From contig CAJFGS010000009.1 of NCBI GenBank assembly GCA_904377855.1, forward strand, positions 1 to 64,000: a stretch of 64,000 nucleotides of DNA. Direction: 5' to 3'. This document shows positions 24,742 through 58,870 of the stretch, in pieces. A model generated the notes under the pieces. The model saw only the letters and a program-made list of their open reading frames with translations. It did no database searches and was not told where the DNA came from. The stretch comes from Candidatus Avimonas merdigallinarum. Its GTDB lineage: Bacteria > Bacillota > Clostridia > Oscillospirales > Acutalibacteraceae. Positions within the stretch are counted from its first letter, which is position 1; each line of letters begins with the position of its first letter. Both the position numbers and the translations under genes were made by a program.

Positions 24742-24817
<76 letters not shown>

Positions 24818-24820
24818 AAA

Positions 24821-24897
24821 TGGCGACCCGGAACGGGCTCGAACCGTCGACCTCTAGCGTGACAGGCTAGCGTTCTAACCAGCTGAACTACCGGGCC
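24821..24897 (-). tRNA. tRNA-Asp (anticodon GTC)
   Basis: The minus strand shows acceptor GGCCCGG with CCGGGTC-like pairing, a D-arm, anticodon loop CCTGTCACG with anticodon GTC, a T-arm with GGTTCGAGCCC, and an encoded CCA. It lies 3 bases upstream of tRNA-Thr, and both share the promoter at 24941-24969. Confidence 0.95.
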
Positions 24898-50796: not shown

Positions 50797-51468
50797 TTAT
50801 TGCATATCGTTTTCAAACCGTTCAACATTCCCCGTTTGCCCGATTACGCAGATGACATCCCCCTGCTGAAAACGATATTCCGATGGAAAATCCACCTCTG
50901 TACGATGATCGTGCTCGATCGCGATAATATTCAGGTTGTATTTTCGCCGGGTATCGGCCTCACGGACGGTGACGCCAATCAGCGGCTCGGTCACTTGGAT
51001 CCTCCGAACTTCGACATTCCCTTCCAAAGTAACAAAGTCGAGGAAGCTATTATTATAAATCAGCCCTTTTCCCAGGCGGATGGCCATATCCCTTTCCGGA
51101 TATACCACCTTGGCTCCCAGCTGTTTGAGTACCTCCCCGTGCATAAAGCTATTCGCTTTGGATATAACGTGCGGCACTTTCATGTTTAAAACCGTCATTG
51201 TGGTCAGGATACTGGTGTCCATTTGCTCGCCAATACAGATGACGACGGTATCGCAGTTCTGAATGCCGGCTTCCTCCAGGGATTCCTGATCCAAAGACTC
51301 TACAACCATAGCAAAATCGGTATACCGCCGCGCTTCTTTTACACGCGCTTCATCTTTGTCAATGGCAACCACTTCTTTATCCGCTTTTGACAAACATTCT
51401 ACCAGTGCTGAACCAAATCGGCCTAGCCCAATGACTCCAAAAGTTGCAGAAGTTTCTCTCTTTTTCAT
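50797..51468 (-). CDS. ktrA: potassium uptake regulatory subunit KtrA
   Basis: A 223-residue RCK protein. The N-terminal nucleotide-binding domain has GVIGLGRFGSALVECL and acidic VVAIDKDE; the C-terminal RCK_C domain starts near residue 135 (VTLEGNVEVRRIQV). It forms a cytoplasmic ring gating KtrB with ATP/ADP and, in many Bacillota, c-di-AMP. It follows ktrB by 28 bases with GGAG before the ATG. Confidence 0.93.
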   Translation of the reverse strand: MKKRETSATFGVIGLGRFGSALVECLSKADKEVVAIDKDEARVKEARRYTDFAMVVESLDQESLEEAGIQNCDTVVICIGEQMDTSILTTMTVLNMKVPHVISKANSFMHGEVLKQLGAKVVYPERDMAIRLGKGLIYNNSFLDFVTLEGNVEVRRIQVTEPLIGVTVREADTRRKYNLNIIAIEHDHRTEVDFPSEYRFQQGDVICVIGQTGNVERFENDMQ

Positions 51469-51496: not shown

Positions 51497-52801
51497 TTAT
51501 CCGACTGTGATTGATTCTTCCGTATAATGAGCGCTGGGGGCGGGCCGGTCTATCCACATCGAAAGCAATGTAAATGTTCCTACCCTGCCGGCAAACATGG
51601 TGAAAATCAGAATGATTTTGCTCCCTTCGCACAATGAAGGCGTAATTCCCGTAGAAAGGCCTACGGTGCCGAACGCCGATACTTCTTCAAACAACAGCTG
51701 AACAAAGCTGCGTTCCGGCTCCAATATGCAAAGGAGGAATGTCCCAATACAAACCAGCAATACGGAAAGCAGGGATATCATCGAAGCTTTTGAGAGAATT
51801 TCTACGGAAATACTGCGGTGAAAGGCGCCAACATGCTTTTTGGTAAACAGGCTCCTCACCTGCTGGAGTAGGACAAAGAACGTACTGGTTTTGATACCGC
51901 CGCCTGTGGAGCCTGGCGAAGCGCCTATAAACATTAGGATAATCAACGTAAATAGGCCCGCATTGGTAAATTCGCCAATCGGATATGTGGAAAATCCGGC
52001 CGTTCTTGCGGAGACGCTATGGAAAAAGGCGCCCAGCCACGAAATATCTTCCGTAGCCTTTAGCAGCAGCGTGCCGACGACCAGCAGGATGCCTGTTGTC
52101 GTGAGCACCACCTTGGAATGCAGGCTGAGCTTTCTAAAGGAACGCTTTTTTAGAATATCCAGGATAACGAGAAAGCCCAAACCGCCAAAAATGATTAGGC
52201 CGCAGGTGGTCAAGTTCAGCAAAACATTGGACTGATACGGGATTAGGTTACGCAATCCGCCAAGAATGTCAAAGCCGGAGTTATTAAACGCGGCAATAGA
52301 ATGGAAGGCGCTGATTCCCAGGGCATGCAAAGGCGGATAATCCTGAACAAAGACTATAAAGCTGAGCGCCATTCCCACCAATTCAAAGCACAAGGTCATC
52401 AGCAGCACGGATTTGACCAGGCGGACCATTCCCTTAAAGCCGTCTACATTAAGCGCTTCCTTAACCAGGACGCGCCCTTTTATACCGACCCGTTTTCTCG
52501 CGGCAAGGATCAGCCCTACCCCAATCGACGTAACGCCGAGTCCCCCGATCTGTATAAGCGCCGCTACAATTGCCTGCCCAAACGCTGTAAAATGATCTGC
52601 GGTATCAATCGCAATCAGCCCGGTGACACAGACTGCGCTTGTTGAGGTAAATAAGGCGTCAATAAAGCTGACATTTACGCCGTCCCTGACAGAGATAGGC
52701 AGCAGGAGCAGCCCTGTGCCCAGTAAAATAACCAACGCAAACCCTACAACAATCAATCTTCCTGGAGGTTGCCGTTTGATTGAAAAAAGAAAGTGTTTCA
52801 C
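51497..52801 (-). CDS. ktrB: potassium uptake channel KtrB (TrkH/KtrB family)
   Basis: A 434-residue membrane protein with four pore-loop repeats typical of the family: STSAVCVTGLIAIDTA, AFNNSGFDILGG, VSARTAGFSTYP and VSAFGTVGLSTGITP. It takes up K+ with Na+ dependence. The start is GTG at 52801; a TAG in frame lies just upstream, and the ribosome site is weak. It is preceded by a leader with an apparent attenuator (52802-53068). Confidence 0.93.
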   Translation of the reverse strand: MKHFLFSIKRQPPGRLIVVGFALVILLGTGLLLLPISVRDGVNVSFIDALFTSTSAVCVTGLIAIDTADHFTAFGQAIVAALIQIGGLGVTSIGVGLILAARKRVGIKGRVLVKEALNVDGFKGMVRLVKSVLLMTLCFELVGMALSFIVFVQDYPPLHALGISAFHSIAAFNNSGFDILGGLRNLIPYQSNVLLNLTTCGLIIFGGLGFLVILDILKKRSFRKLSLHSKVVLTTTGILLVVGTLLLKATEDISWLGAFFHSVSARTAGFSTYPIGEFTNAGLFTLIILMFIGASPGSTGGGIKTSTFFVLLQQVRSLFTKKHVGAFHRSISVEILSKASMISLLSVLLVCIGTFLLCILEPERSFVQLLFEEVSAFGTVGLSTGITPSLCEGSKIILIFTMFAGRVGTFTLLSMWIDRPAPSAHYTEESITVG

Positions 52802-53068
52802 TTTACACTACTGGCATACAAAACGTATTGGCCAGTTCTTTTTCATCCTTTCCTACCGTGTATTTTCATCCTGCACCTTTTATCCGGTCGCTGTTCTTTG
52901 CCGGTTGGCTGCATAAAAAAGGCAGAACTTCCATGGCGGAAGTCTGCCCCTTTCCATTTCAAAGCGATAGTCAACCAATCCGCCTTGACACCAAAAGGTA
53001 CGCTTGTAAACAGATAGAGAGACAACGCCTCTCTATGGCAGACTCCACCACTTATTCCGGCACAGCAT
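52802..53068 (-). promoter_or_regulatory. structured ktrB leader, candidate riboswitch or attenuator
   Basis: Transcripts from the promoter at 53069-53097 cross about 265 bases before ktrB. They contain an 8-pair hairpin (53014-53036), a GAGTCTGCC segment (53045-53037) complementary to the left arm of the downstream terminator, and the terminator itself (52914-52948). This is the layout of a terminator/antiterminator switch. The sequence does not match a consensus I can recall for the c-di-AMP (ydaO) class or the M-box. Confidence 0.55.
52914..52948 (-). terminator. attenuator terminator in the ktrB leader
   Basis: Arms GGCAGACTTCC and GGAAGTTCTGCC on the minus strand pair around a 5-base loop and are followed by TTTTTT. 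It lies 112 bases upstream of the ktrB start and after the ktrB promoter, so it would stop transcription before the gene. Confidence 0.8.
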
Positions 53069-53097
53069 AGTATAAGGTTTGTACGGAGATAAGTCAA
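53069..53097 (-). promoter_or_regulatory. promoter of the ktrB leader
   Basis: TTGACT (53097-53092), 17-base spacer, TATACT (53074-53069) on the minus strand, a strong vegetative-type promoter. Confidence 0.8.
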
Positions 53098-53186: not shown

Positions 53187-53828
53187 TTACTGTTTTCCCC
53201 TTGGGCAGGCAACATACAGCAGCGCGTTGATAATTGCCGCCGCCACATTGCTGCCGCCCTTTCGCCCTTTGGCCACAATATACGGTACGCCGCTCTCCAT
53301 AATGATTTCCTTGGATTCGCAGACATGGACAAAGCCTACCGGCACCCCCACGACAAACGCCGGCCGGATTTCCCCCGCTTTAATCAGCCGGTCCAGTTCC
53401 AGCAGCGCAGTCGGAGCGTTCCCTATCGCAAAAATTGTCGGCTTATTCAGCGTCCGGGCCGCTTTCCTCATACTGACCGACGCGCGGGTAATCCCTTCCG
53501 CCTTGGCTTCCTCTGCCACATCCTCGTCCGAGACAAAGCAATGCACCCGGCCGCCCAGCTTTTCCAGCGTCGGCTTATTGATCCCTGCCAGCGCCATTTT
53601 GGTATCCGTCACAATATCCGCGCCGCTTTTCAAAGCGTCCAGCGCTATCTGCACCGCATTTTCGGAAAAACAAAGCGTATTTACATAATCAAAATCCGCC
53701 GTGGTATGGATGACGCGCTTGATGATCGGCGCCTTTTCCTCCTCCAGTACAACGTCCCCCAGTTCCCGGGTGATGATAGCAAAACTCCGTTCCTCAATTT
53801 CCATCGGCTTAAGCGTTTCCATATTCAT
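53187..53828 (-). CDS. cbiC: cobalt-precorrin-8 methylmutase
   Basis: A 213-residue enzyme that moves a methyl group from C-11 to C-12 to form cobyrinic acid. It has IEERSFAIITREL, the catalytic histidine in VIHTTADFDY, SGADIVTDTKMALAGI and GNAPTALLELDRLI. Length is usual. The ATG at 53828 is chosen; the frame extends upstream in a different phase inside cobQ without family similarity. It is the last gene of the cobalamin operon in this direction. Confidence 0.93.
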   Translation of the reverse strand: MNMETLKPMEIEERSFAIITRELGDVVLEEEKAPIIKRVIHTTADFDYVNTLCFSENAVQIALDALKSGADIVTDTKMALAGINKPTLEKLGGRVHCFVSDEDVAEEAKAEGITRASVSMRKAARTLNKPTIFAIGNAPTALLELDRLIKAGEIRPAFVVGVPVGFVHVCESKEIIMESGVPYIVAKGRKGGSNVAAAIINALLYVACPRGKQ

Positions 53829-53877
53829 GACCACCATTCCTTTCCCAATCCGCAAGGCGGTTGATGCCGTCCATTCT

Positions 53878-55380
53878 TCATTTGCGGATGCCTTCGTCCA
53901 AAATCGCATATATCTTGTCCATATCCAGCGATTTTCGCAAGGCATCTGCCAGCAAATCGTACTGCCGCTCTTTATATGCTTTCCGGTCAATTGCCTGGCC
54001 GTCAGCCGGAGCAATCCCCTTGCGCGCCGACAAAGCGCTGGCGAGGGCCTGCAGTACCTCGTTGGAATCGAACAGGCCGTGGACATAGCTTCCATAGACG
54101 CTGACGCCATCCGATATCCCGTCCGTTTTCCGCTTCCCGTCCGCGTCGCATAAAATCGAAAGCCGGGTCTCCCCCGCCGTCGTTCCCATATGGATTTCAT
54201 ATCCCTCGAACCGCGCGCCGCTGAGGGCGGAAAGCACGCCCGGCACCTCTTCAAACCGCCCTTCAACCCTGGTGCGGGTTTTCTCCTGCTCAAACACCGT
54301 CTGCGCATCGATTAGGCCGAGGCCATCGATTTCGCCGCCCTCCTCCACGCCGTATGGGTCGCGGATTGTCCGGCAGAGCATCTGATAGCCGCCGCAGATG
54401 CCGATCAGGGGATTGCCCGCCCCGGCATATCGCTGGATTTTTGCCGCCAGTCCGCTTTCCTTCAGCCACTGCAAGTCAGCAATCGTGTTTTTGGTGCCCG
54501 GCAGAATCACCAGATCCGGCGTTCCAAACTCTTCCGGCCGGCGGATATACCGCACGGAGAACGCGTCCACGCAGGAAAGCGCGCCGAAGTCCGTGAAATT
54601 CGAGATTTTCGGCAGGCGGACAACCGCGATATCGATGGCCCCGCCGCCGTTCCGGGTGGTCAGGCGTTCCGAAAGGCTGTCCTCGTCGTCGATATCCAGC
54701 GATAGGTAGGGCACCACACCGAGCACCGGCACGTGGACAAGCTCCTCCAGCATGGTCAGCCCCGGCTTCAGGATTTCCACATCCCCCCGGAACTTATTGA
54801 TCACCGTGCCCTTGATGTAATCGCGATCCTTTTCCAGAAGCTTCACCGTGCCGTACAGGGAGGCGAACACTCCCCCGCGGTCGATATCGCCCACAATCAA
54901 CACGGGGGCCTCCGCCATGCGCGCCATCCCCATGTTGACGATATCGTCCTGCAACAGGTTGATTTCTGCCGGGCTTCCGGCCCCTTCGATGACCAGGATG
55001 TCGTTTTCCGCAGCAAGGCTGTCGAATGCCTGCATAATCGCGGGCTTAAGCGAGCTTTTCATGCGGAAATAATCAGCGGCGCGTTTATTGCCGAGCACTT
55101 TGCCGCCGACGATCACCTGGGAGCCTTTGTCGCTGGTGGGCTTGAGAAGGATAGGGTTCATCCGCACATCCGGTTCTTTGCCTGCCGCTTCCGCCTGCAC
55201 CACCTGGGCGCGCCCCATCTCCAGCCCGTCCCGGGTGATAAAGGAATTGAGCGCCATATTCTGGGATTTAAAGGGAGCCACGCGGTAGCCGTCCTGCATA
55301 AAGATGCGGCAGAGCCCCGCGGTAATCAGGCTTTTTCCCGCATTGGAGGTAGTGCCCTGGATCATAATTCTCTTTGCCAT
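53878..55380 (-). CDS. cobQ: cobyric acid synthase
   Basis: A 500-residue amidotransferase that amidates side chains b, d, e and g of adenosylcobyrinic diamide. It has the P-loop-like [43 protein letters not shown], and the glutaminase nucleophile in GICGGYQML with a distal YVHGLFD. It lies 49 bases upstream of cbiC and 4 bases after the decarboxylase gene. Confidence 0.95.
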
Positions 55381-55384
55381 ACCG

Positions 55385-56452
55385 CTATCTCCTTTCCTTG
55401 AAATCGATCTCCCGCAGCGCTGCCATCAGCTGCCCGTTATCCTCCGCCGACTTGACCGCTACACGGAAATAGCCCTCCCGGAGCCCCCGGTAATTGCTGC
55501 AGCTGCGGATGAGGATCCCTTTTTCCAGCAGGCGTTCCTTCAGATCCGACCGGTCGGTTTTCAAAAGAAAATAGTTTGCTGCGCTGGGATACACCTTTAC
55601 AGGGAGTTCGGAAAGCTGTTTATAAAGCGCTTCCCCCAGTTCCGGCAGAAGCCGCTTGGTTTCCATAATATACGCCGTATCCGTCAGCGCCGCCAAGCCG
55701 CATCTTTGCGCCGGGACGGAAACGCTCCACGGCTGTCCCGCGCTTTCCACCCGCATGCGGACGGTTTCCGCTCCGCTGAACAGATATCCCAGCCGCAGGC
55801 CCGCCATCGCAAAGAATTTCGTAAACGCCTTGAGTACAAGCAGCTGCGGATAGCGCGACAGCTCCGTTTTCATACTGCAGGCCTCCCCGCCTGCGGCCAT
55901 ATCCAGAAAGCACTCGTCCACAATCAGAAACGCGCCGTGGGCCTGGCAATAATCCGCTATCTGCATCAACAGGCCTTTGGGAATCAGCCGGCCGGTCGGA
56001 TTGTTGGGGTTGCAAAGGAAGACCATATCCGGCTGATGCTGCCGCAGGGCATCCAGGAAGCGTTTGTCCAGGGAAAAACCGTCCTCCTCGAGCAGCGGAT
56101 GATAGGCGATTTCCGCCCCCACCTGAACAGCCGCCGCCTCATATTCGGAAAAGGTGGGAGCGGGCAGCAGAACTTTCTTAGGCCGCAGGCCGTAAGCGAT
56201 CCGATAGATTAAATCCGCTGCGCCGTTGCCAAAAAGGATGCATTCCTCTGCAATCCCTTCGTGCTTTGCCAGGGCATGTTTCAGTTCCCGGCAAAAGGGG
56301 TCGGGATATGCCTCGCATTCCTCCGCCAATGTGCCGAAAACCGCCTTCACCTTCGGCGGGATGCCGAGAGGGTTCAGGTTTACGGAAAAATCCAGCAGCG
56401 CTTTCTCTTTCAGGGAAGGCGCATAGATATCGCCGCCGTGTCCATATTCCAT
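55385..56452 (-). CDS. cobD: threonine-phosphate decarboxylase
   Basis: A 355-residue PLP enzyme of the aminotransferase class I/II fold that makes aminopropanol phosphate for the corrin side chain. It starts [10 protein letters not shown], typical of CobD, and has [25 protein letters not shown] and the PLP lysine in [17 protein letters not shown]. Because HisC-like enzymes look similar, the operon context strengthens the call. GGAGGAGGG before the ATG at 56452 decides the start. Confidence 0.9.
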
Positions 56453-56472
56453 TAAGGTTCCCTCCTCCCGAT

Positions 56473-57441
56473 TTACCGAAGGATCAGCCAGAAGCCAAGC
56501 CAAACAAGCGCTGCCGTCGCAACCGCCAACGCCGACGTGGTCATCATCAGCCGGTTGGCGCGCGGGATATCCTGCGCTTCTGTTTTTCTTCCTTCATCGC
56601 CAATGGTCGGTTTTTCATAAAGCTTGCCGAAATAATACGCATTGCCCGCGAGCTGAATTCCCAACGCGCCGGCACAGACGCTCTCGGTCTGGGCGCTATT
56701 GGGGCTGGCATGCTTCCGCCGGTCCCGCCGATATATCCGGGCGGCATTCTTCCCATCGAAGCCGCACAGAAACGAGGCCGCAATCATGAACAGACCGCTC
56801 AGCCTGGCCGGAATCCAGTTGGCCACATCGTCCAGCTTGGCTGCGAACCGCCCGAAATACAGATATTTCTCATTTTTATAGCCTATCATCGAATCCAGCG
56901 TGTTGACGGCTTTATAGGCAAACGCCAGGGGCGCCCCGCCGATCGCCATGTAAAGCAGGGGCGCCACCACCCCGTCAGAGGTGTTTTCCGCCACGGTCTC
57001 TACCGCGGCCTTGGCCACCGCTTCCTCCGAAAGCGCCTGCGTATCCCTCCCCACGATATAGGAAAGGTATTTTCTTGCATCCGCTAGGTTTCCGCTTTTT
57101 AAAGCGGTGTAAACCTTCATGCTCTCGGTTTTCAGGGAACGGACCGCAAAGATCTGATAGCAGCACCAGACCTGAACCACAACCGCCAGCGCGATATGAA
57201 TCTTCGCTAAGCCCCATAAAATGAGGAACGGCACGATAAAGCACAGCAGGACGATGGCAATGCTCATGGCCATGCCGCCGAGGAATTCTCCTTTCGGCGT
57301 TTTCTTAAAGACCCTGCGCGCCATTTTTTCCCCTTTGGAAATCATTTTTCCTATCAGGCAGATGGGGTGCGGCAGCCAATAGGGATCGCCAAACAGCAAA
57401 TCCAGGATAAACGCGGACACCAGAATGCCTGCCATTATCAT
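56473..57441 (-). CDS. cbiB: adenosylcobinamide-phosphate synthase
   Basis: A 322-residue membrane enzyme joining adenosylcobyric acid with the aminopropanol side chain. It has LDLLFGDPYWLPHPICLIGK, KAAVETVAENTSDGVVAPLL, FAYKAVNTLDSMIGYKNEKY and LDDVANWIPARLSG, all typical. It has several membrane spans. It works directly with the CobD-type product of the next gene, 20 bases away. Confidence 0.94.
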   Translation of the reverse strand: MIMAGILVSAFILDLLFGDPYWLPHPICLIGKMISKGEKMARRVFKKTPKGEFLGGMAMSIAIVLLCFIVPFLILWGLAKIHIALAVVVQVWCCYQIFAVRSLKTESMKVYTALKSGNLADARKYLSYIVGRDTQALSEEAVAKAAVETVAENTSDGVVAPLLYMAIGGAPLAFAYKAVNTLDSMIGYKNEKYLYFGRFAAKLDDVANWIPARLSGLFMIAASFLCGFDGKNAARIYRRDRRKHASPNSAQTESVCAGALGIQLAGNAYYFGKLYEKPTIGDEGRKTEAQDIPRANRLMMTTSALAVATAALVWLGFWLILR

Positions 57442-57496
57442 ACCGATTCCTCCTTTCTGACTCTTTTACAGTAAAGTAAATCGCCCTTATATTCCT

Positions 57497-58870
57497 TTAA
57501 GTGCGCTTTTTTCGGTAATCCGCGCAGGCGCGGAGGAACCGCTCGGCAAAATCCGGCGCACCGTAAAAATGCAGATGCGGATAGCCGGCGAGCAGGTTGC
57601 CCTGAGCAACCATACAGGGGTAGGCGGCACCAGTACTCTCTTTTTTGGCCAGGAACGCATCGCCGTTCTCGTCGCTGTCCGCATAATGGAACTCGTGTGC
57701 TGGAATCCGGCCGCCCGCAGCGGAGAGAAGGGTATCCTTCTGAGCGGTAAGGGTTACATATCCAAACCGGCAGAGCTTTCCCGTCATGCGGGAGGTGGAT
57801 TTTACCAACCCCGCCAAGGGATAAGAAACGCCGTCTTCCCCGACAAACGCCTCCTGCAGATACTGGAAGCCTCCGCATTCTCCGTAAATGGGCATTCCCG
57901 CCCGCCATGCCGAGCGGATGCTTTGGAGCATCCCGGTATTCCCGCTCAGCTCCTCCAAGTACAGTTCCGGATATCCCCCGCCGAAGAGAAGCCCGTCCAC
58001 CCCGTCGGGCAGTTCCCGGTCGGACAACGGGGAAAACGGGAGAAGTTCCGCCCCCATTTCCGTGAGCAGATCCAGCGCGTCCGAATAATAAAAGCAGAAC
58101 GCCTTGTCCTTCGCCACCCCAATCCGCACGGGATGATGATAGTTCGGGCATAGTTCTTCATACGTGAAGGGATCGGACTCGTCAGCCAGTTCCAGCAAGC
58201 CGTCCAGATCCAGCGTCTGTTCCGCCTGTCGGGACAGGAGGCGTATCATCTCTTTTAAGCTGCCGACTTCCGCTGCTGTTACCAGCCCCAAATGCCGGCT
58301 TTCCAGCTTCACTGCCGGCATGGGCGGCAAATAGCCGTAAAACCGCAGCCCGGTATGGGTTTCCACCATCTCGCGATATATCTCCGCCATCCGCGGGCTG
58401 CCGACATGATTCATAATCACGCCCCGAATGTGGTTGGGGGCAAAATCCTGCAGGCCTTTCAAAAGCGCGCAGGCAGTCAGAGACATCCCCTTTGCGTTGA
58501 TTACCAGCACAACCGGGGTTTTTGTTTCATTGGCAAGATCACAGCTGGAATACCGCATGGTCTGCCCCGCGCCGTCGTAAAACCCCATGACCCCTTCTAT
58601 AATGGAAACACGGCTCCCTTGGCTGTTTTTTGCCAGGGAATACAATACGCCGTTTTGTCCCATCAGGAACAAATCCAGGTTGCGGGAATGCGCGCCGAGG
58701 ATTTCCGAATGGAACATCGGGTCGATATAGTCCGGCCCGGATTTAAAGGAGGAAAGAGCCAGGCCGCGTTCCTTCAGCGCGCCCAGGACGGCGCAGGTCA
58801 CGGTGGTCTTTCCGCAGCCGCTTCCGATCCCGGCAATCATGAGCCGCGGCGGGTTGGAAGAATGTTTCAT
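57497..58870 (-). CDS. cbiA: cobyrinate a,c-diamide synthase
   Basis: A 457-residue ATP-dependent amidotransferase acting on side chains a and c. It has MIAGIGSGCGKTTVTCAVLG, FKSGPDYIDPMFH, EGVMGFYDGAG and the glutaminase GECGGFQYLQE with a late histidine. Its start overlaps the end of cbiE by 4 bases (ATGA), so the two are coupled. Confidence 0.95.
   Translation of the reverse strand: MKHSSNPPRLMIAGIGSGCGKTTVTCAVLGALKERGLALSSFKSGPDYIDPMFHSEILGAHSRNLDLFLMGQNGVLYSLAKNSQGSRVSIIEGVMGFYDGAGQTMRYSSCDLANETKTPVVLVINAKGMSLTACALLKGLQDFAPNHIRGVIMNHVGSPRMAEIYREMVETHTGLRFYGYLPPMPAVKLESRHLGLVTAAEVGSLKEMIRLLSRQAEQTLDLDGLLELADESDPFTYEELCPNYHHPVRIGVAKDKAFCFYYSDALDLLTEMGAELLPFSPLSDRELPDGVDGLLFGGGYPELYLEELSGNTGMLQSIRSAWRAGMPIYGECGGFQYLQEAFVGEDGVSYPLAGLVKSTSRMTGKLCRFGYVTLTAQKDTLLSAAGGRIPAHEFHYADSDENGDAFLAKKESTGAAYPCMVAQGNLLAGYPHLHFYGAPDFAERFLRACADYRKKRT

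Follow-up and report, generated by a model that had tools for sequence, protein, structure and literature searches.

Shut-off of K+ uptake by c-di-AMP is known for ktr genes. The ydaO/yuaA c-di-AMP riboswitch (RF00379), a transcription-attenuating OFF switch, can control ktrAB, and in both respects resembles the leader described here, found upstream of ktrB in Candidatus Avimonas merdigallinarum; however, the RF00379 model spans 134 positions, whereas the present element is a two-helix structure of 62 nt. PyrR-binding attenuators (RF00515) follow the same logic of anti-antiterminator hairpin, antiterminator and terminator, but their conserved loop is a different one and the element's targets are not pyrimidine genes. 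The Na+-I riboswitch (DUF1646 motif, PMC9337991) also exerts transcription control over ion- and energy-related genes, although its family gave no Rfam match to the element, whose targets include an H+-type, K+-independent pyrophosphatase (PPase), PiT and pyruvate kinase. Fluoride (crcB) riboswitches have phosphate transporters or polyphosphate phosphatase as possible associates (PMC9971707), but here again there was no Rfam match, and neither crcB nor fluc occurred among 45 loci with an assigned target. No riboswitch is known for phosphorus status, according to reviews (PMC10043782; PMC9971707), and an ATP riboswitch is described in review as still missing.

Within the window, the whole 64,000-nucleotide stretch of DNA analysed, the locus occupies the minus strand. 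ktrB (51497..52801, GTG start) encodes a K+ uptake channel subunit of the TrkH/KtrB family (PF02386, E 4e-53; TIGR00933, E 5e-97, slightly below that model's cut-off) and is followed by ktrA (50797..51468), a TrkA-N/RCK-type gating subunit assigned from its place after ktrB and from NCBIfam TrkA-type matches that fall below cut-off. The four features that a sequence-only reading had proposed before ktrB (promoter, 8-pair hairpin, sequence complementary to a terminator arm, T-tailed terminator) were all found on this strand, although not quite in the order given, since the antiterminator strand lies immediately 5′ of the hairpin and not after it. The sigma-70-type promoter TTGACT-17-TATACT (53069..53097) matches the consensus at 10/12 positions; taken alone it is not significant (2 consensus sites found against 2.0 expected), and similar promoters are kept in relatives at equal distance from the element. 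The conserved aptamer-like element itself (53003..53064), delimited by covariance models and a 47-member alignment, comprises the 5′ strand of helix P1, GAAUAA (53052..53057), a 15-nt bulge, GUGGUGGAGUCUGCC (53037..53051), the 8-bp hairpin P2, AUAGAGAG/CUCUCUAU (53014..53036), and the 3′ strand of P1, CUGUUU (53008..53013), P1 being weak in this copy. Downstream stands an intrinsic terminator, GGCAGACUUCC-GCCAU-GGAAGUUCUGCC-UUUUUU (52915..52948), recognised by sequence, scan, duplex test and two-state folds. Its 5′ arm GGCAGACUUCC (52948-52938) is complementary to the bulge, where the matching stretch is GGAGUCUGCC (53046-53037), and the leader folds far more stably than chance (z -5.0). The DNA immediately upstream (53187-58870) carries, in the same orientation, genes for cobalamin biosynthesis (precorrin-8X methylmutase, cobyric acid synthase and others adjacent to them), and an adjacent pair of tRNA genes is found elsewhere in the window, also on the minus strand (24745-24897).

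The start of ktrB has a structure of its own. A Shine-Dalgarno-like GAAAGG (52847..52852, minus strand) is placed 45 nt before the start codon, an arrangement shared by relatives, and sequence, relatives and folding all indicate a hairpin between it and the start (52810..52836, minus strand), as in the split ribosome-binding sites known for T4 genes 38 and 25 (PMC3014915). The same order was recovered by a crude rule in 24/37 ktrB upstream regions, with L027, L028 and L030 doubtful. These hairpins (loci in the range L007-L081, from Oscillospirales-like genomes and Blautia) differ in stem sequence and are similar in spacing, and their folding beats that of shuffles in aggregate (Fisher p ~4e-9, from 15 regions of related sequence). 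A 12-codon open reading frame, MKKNWPIRFVCQ, ending in TAG, in frame with ktrB and directly upstream of it (52846-52808, minus strand), is probably non-coding and part of the spacer hairpin.

A near-identical block was present upstream of ktrB relatives in several Clostridia. DNA similarity yielded matches in only 5 of 98 near genomes, the window's own included, and because so few copies were found in this way covariance models were used, R1 being built from 14 copies and R2 from 36. In 47 aligned copies, the consensus consists of P1 (..GAAUAA / UUAUUC..), a one-sided bulge G-N-GGUGGAGUCUGUC, and P2, formed by an A-U base pair and a variable stem and loop; in most members there are no unpaired bases on the side opposite the bulge. 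The bulge core GGUGGAGUCUGUCA is near-invariant, with 12/14 positions identical in 47/47 members. The helices, by comparison, change in concert: 94.7% of pair cells pair, compared with 77.3% after shuffling; double-change cells number 129 (shuffle mean 38.8; slid-partner controls ≤31) and involve 13/15 pairs of P1 and P2; and the covariation score is 0.567, with slid partners reaching at most 0.131. All of these values come from an alignment fitted to a covariance model, which biases it towards that model's structure. Essentially the same two helices were drawn by RNAalifold on the 36-member alignment, and a MAFFT alignment of 14 members, made with no model fitting, still had 10 double-change cells against 2.9 in shuffled data. 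Members scored at least 47.9 bits, the window copy reaching 62.5 bits with R1 and 55.2 bits with R2, both of which included it in training. Conserved structure, covariation and an invariant core thus coincide in one alignment, and there is little room for doubt that the element is a conserved regulatory RNA. Covariance analysis of homologous leaders had been suggested from the window sequence as one means of checking the leader, and the pairing is indeed conserved in relatives, which, on sequence comparison, rules out a chance arrangement in the window.

Attenuation by leader peptide also employs a terminator and an antiterminator, and the leader could on that score be of this kind, or be constitutive, with the conserved block serving as a DNA or coding element. 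This is scarcely credible, given that compensatory substitutions have occurred in the stems while the bulge has stayed fixed, and that the window has no ATG anywhere between the point where the transcript should begin and ~8 nt ahead of the terminator. No conserved short open reading frame was found overlapping the switch; RNA pairs are conserved instead. Moreover, 21 viral contigs in IMG/VR contain the exact 18-base core but score ≤26 bits and lack the fold.

The element corresponds to no described family that we could find. Rfam 15 gave no family above gathering thresholds in the window or in ~25 member loci, and permissive scans returned sub-threshold matches only, so that a known Rfam family was rejected as the identity of the element. 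The RF00379 covariance model had no match in the window, where the sequence-only reading had likewise been unable to fit the c-di-AMP consensus, and 29/30 carrier genomes are without RF00379. The best score for the PyrR binding site model RF00515 was 24.4 bits (gathering threshold 54), at L097 only. Searching the literature for the core sequence, for the target genes and for phrases on K+ riboswitches turned up no description of the element, and the K+ riboswitch phrases returned nothing. The main texts of four motif papers (PMC8632094, PMC11109978, PMC6429828, PMC8040213) mention none of ktr, trk, pyrophosphatase, pyruvate kinase or potassium; an unnamed listing in the supplements of these papers is possible. 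The lack of an Rfam match together with a conserved, covarying fold apparently bears out the suggestion of a different aptamer-like class, and the element is probably a new orphan riboswitch candidate class.

Its distribution is patchy. R1 recovered copies from 26/394 genomes sampled across the order, counting the window's own, and R2 from 4/391 genomes in a sample of the class, two of them outside the order, and from 1/348 in a sample of the phylum, this being the window's own; further copies were detected with R2 in particular families. As these samples were searched with fast filters, all such frequencies are lower bounds. Of 12 genomes in the window's genus, only that of the window carries the element. 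Carriers, among them Fournierella massiliensis, Pseudoflavonifractor capillosus, Gemmiger sp. An87 and Candidatus Stoquefichus massiliensis, mostly have one copy; an exception is genome G345, whose three copies precede flippase-ktrBA, pit and hppA. Two diverged copies lie upstream of ktrB, one at L009:450-513 (R1 18.6 bits) and one near position 2180 of L012 that the models missed; perhaps these are decaying variants or variants of altered specificity. Spread by phage was considered and rejected on account of the viral contigs described above, where the core matches are, judging by their sequence, most likely coincidence. Mobile-element sequences do occur beside some copies: an IS200-like reading frame separates the element from pit at L083 and L085, and a transposase-like one follows it at L123 (all named by sequence, with no scan).

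That the leader can switch between terminator and antiterminator, as proposed from the window alone, is supported by pairing between bulge and terminator. In the window, the duplex of GGAGUCUGCC with the arm has an energy of -17.1 kcal/mol, compared with a mean of -10.2 for shuffled sequences, and none of 200 dinucleotide shuffles equalled it. For most members, when partners for GGAGUCUGUC are sought within 190 nt, the best is the 5′ arm of a hairpin (RRCAG[A/G]...) with U-runs after it, and in 43/47 the best site is followed by a U-run. Pairing was below the shuffle median at 40/45 loci (Fisher p ~1e-10, the loci being related and not independent), and at several loci (L005, L097, L104, L113 and L119) the duplex test found it no better than shuffles. 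Constraint folding of seven leaders produced an aptamer-plus-terminator state for each and, for six, an antiterminator made by pairing of the bulge with the terminator arm, with loss of P1 and retention of P2; no such antiterminator was recovered for L008. In the window the computed minimum is the antiterminator (MFE -63.5; holding the terminator 3′ arm free gives -58.2, and holding the bulge free gives -49.5), P1 being weak there (GAAUAA/CUGUUU), while in the other six leaders, of the two constrained states, the one with the bulge held free has the lower energy. By computation, then, the expression platform and the sensor fold are mutually exclusive, weakly so in some members. The terminator arms vary among members and the bulge does not, so that pairing with the arm alone fails to explain conservation of the bulge, which needs a second role, most simply that of a binding pocket.

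These features point to a transcription-attenuating riboswitch for a small ligand, of a class outside the searched libraries, and we regard this reading as likely. In the nascent RNA, P2 would form first and P1 next, leaving the 15-nt one-sided bulge GNGGUGGAGUCUGUC as putative binding pocket. A ligand holding P1 and the bulge would allow the terminator to form and transcription would end before ktrB; with no ligand, the bulge, through its GGAGUCUG strand, would pair with the terminator 5′ arm (RRCAGA...) to make the antiterminator, and ktrBA would be transcribed. The element should accordingly behave as a genetic OFF switch, the direction being inferred from the arrangement of the pairing strands; in principle, a pseudoknot combining bulge-arm pairing with an intact P1 would permit an ON switch instead. 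A hairpin this compact, exposing a single-stranded patch that hardly varies, could also be the site of a protein, which by binding the 15-nt bulge with P1 and P2 would act as anti-antiterminator and let the terminator form. PyrR sites have this antiterminator/terminator logic, and the weak PyrR model match at L097 is in the same direction. Yet the copies are dispersed before unrelated single genes, with roughly one to a genome and only 1/12 genomes of the genus carrying any, and no constant regulator gene was seen nearby, which makes protein control unlikely. A diffusible signal fits patchy distribution and about one copy per genome better than a dedicated protein would, and the predicted binder is probably a small ligand.

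The genes that the element precedes bear on the nature of this putative ligand. A recognised gene lay downstream on the element's strand at 45/50 loci (a set that includes a few near-duplicates), as expected of a 5′ leader, and was missing at 5/50. The first recognised gene was hppA at 17, pit at 12, ktrB at 8 and pyk at 4, with single loci for nptA, flippase-ktrB-ktrA, oadB and an ABC exporter; Pfam confirmed the target families for representative proteins. The pit loci often read pit-DUF47-ktrB-ktrA, and at L010 ktrBA is followed, in the same orientation, by hppA as well. The expectation of a sensor dedicated to ktr or K+ therefore proves too narrow, ktrB being among the targets but most copies preceding hppA or pit. 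In seven HppA proteins (L010, L129-L134), the motif GNTVKA(V/I)T supplies Lys 12.46 and Thr 12.49, positions assigned by motif and not by structure. These are the changes of K+-independent H+-PPases (PMC10897367), and the seven proteins checked carry, by sequence, the signature of a K+-independent H+ pump; a K+-dependent PPase was accordingly discarded as an argument for a K+ signal.

This signature speaks against simple sensing of K+ or Na+ and makes phosphate, PPi and energy the broadest common theme, to which the pit-ktr operon would leave K+ uptake tied. A riboswitch sensing K+ (or Na+) for cation-linked genes would account for ktrBA as a target in the window and elsewhere, for the pit-DUF47-ktrBA operons, and for nptA and oadB, Na+-linked by family; but the largest target set, hppA, needs neither ion, judging from the seven proteins, and pit and pyk fit K+ homeostasis poorly, so that K+ is an improbable ligand. 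Still less probable is c-di-AMP, acting through a second riboswitch class that shuts off K+ uptake. OFF logic and ktrAB targets fit such a class, RF00379 is missing from nearly all carriers, and a DAC (diadenylate cyclase) domain match was obtained in 29/30 carrier genomes, 28 of them above cut-off. The DAC domain is, however, near-universal here and so not diagnostic, and the element has no similarity to RF00379. To our knowledge, hppA, pit and pyk are not typical targets of c-di-AMP riboswitches, and as the main targets here they match that class poorly. For the small-ligand riboswitch that we favour, our guess, weakly held and somewhat short of an even chance, is a signal of phosphorus or energy status, whether Pi, PPi or an adenine nucleotide, these being taken jointly.

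An orphan class directed mainly at membrane pyrophosphatase, phosphate import, uptake of K+ and pyruvate kinase would make the phosphorus, ATP and K+ gaps among riboswitches testable with a 62-nt RNA. If the proposal is true, it would also show a way in which KtrAB can be controlled in some gut Clostridia that are without the known c-di-AMP riboswitch.
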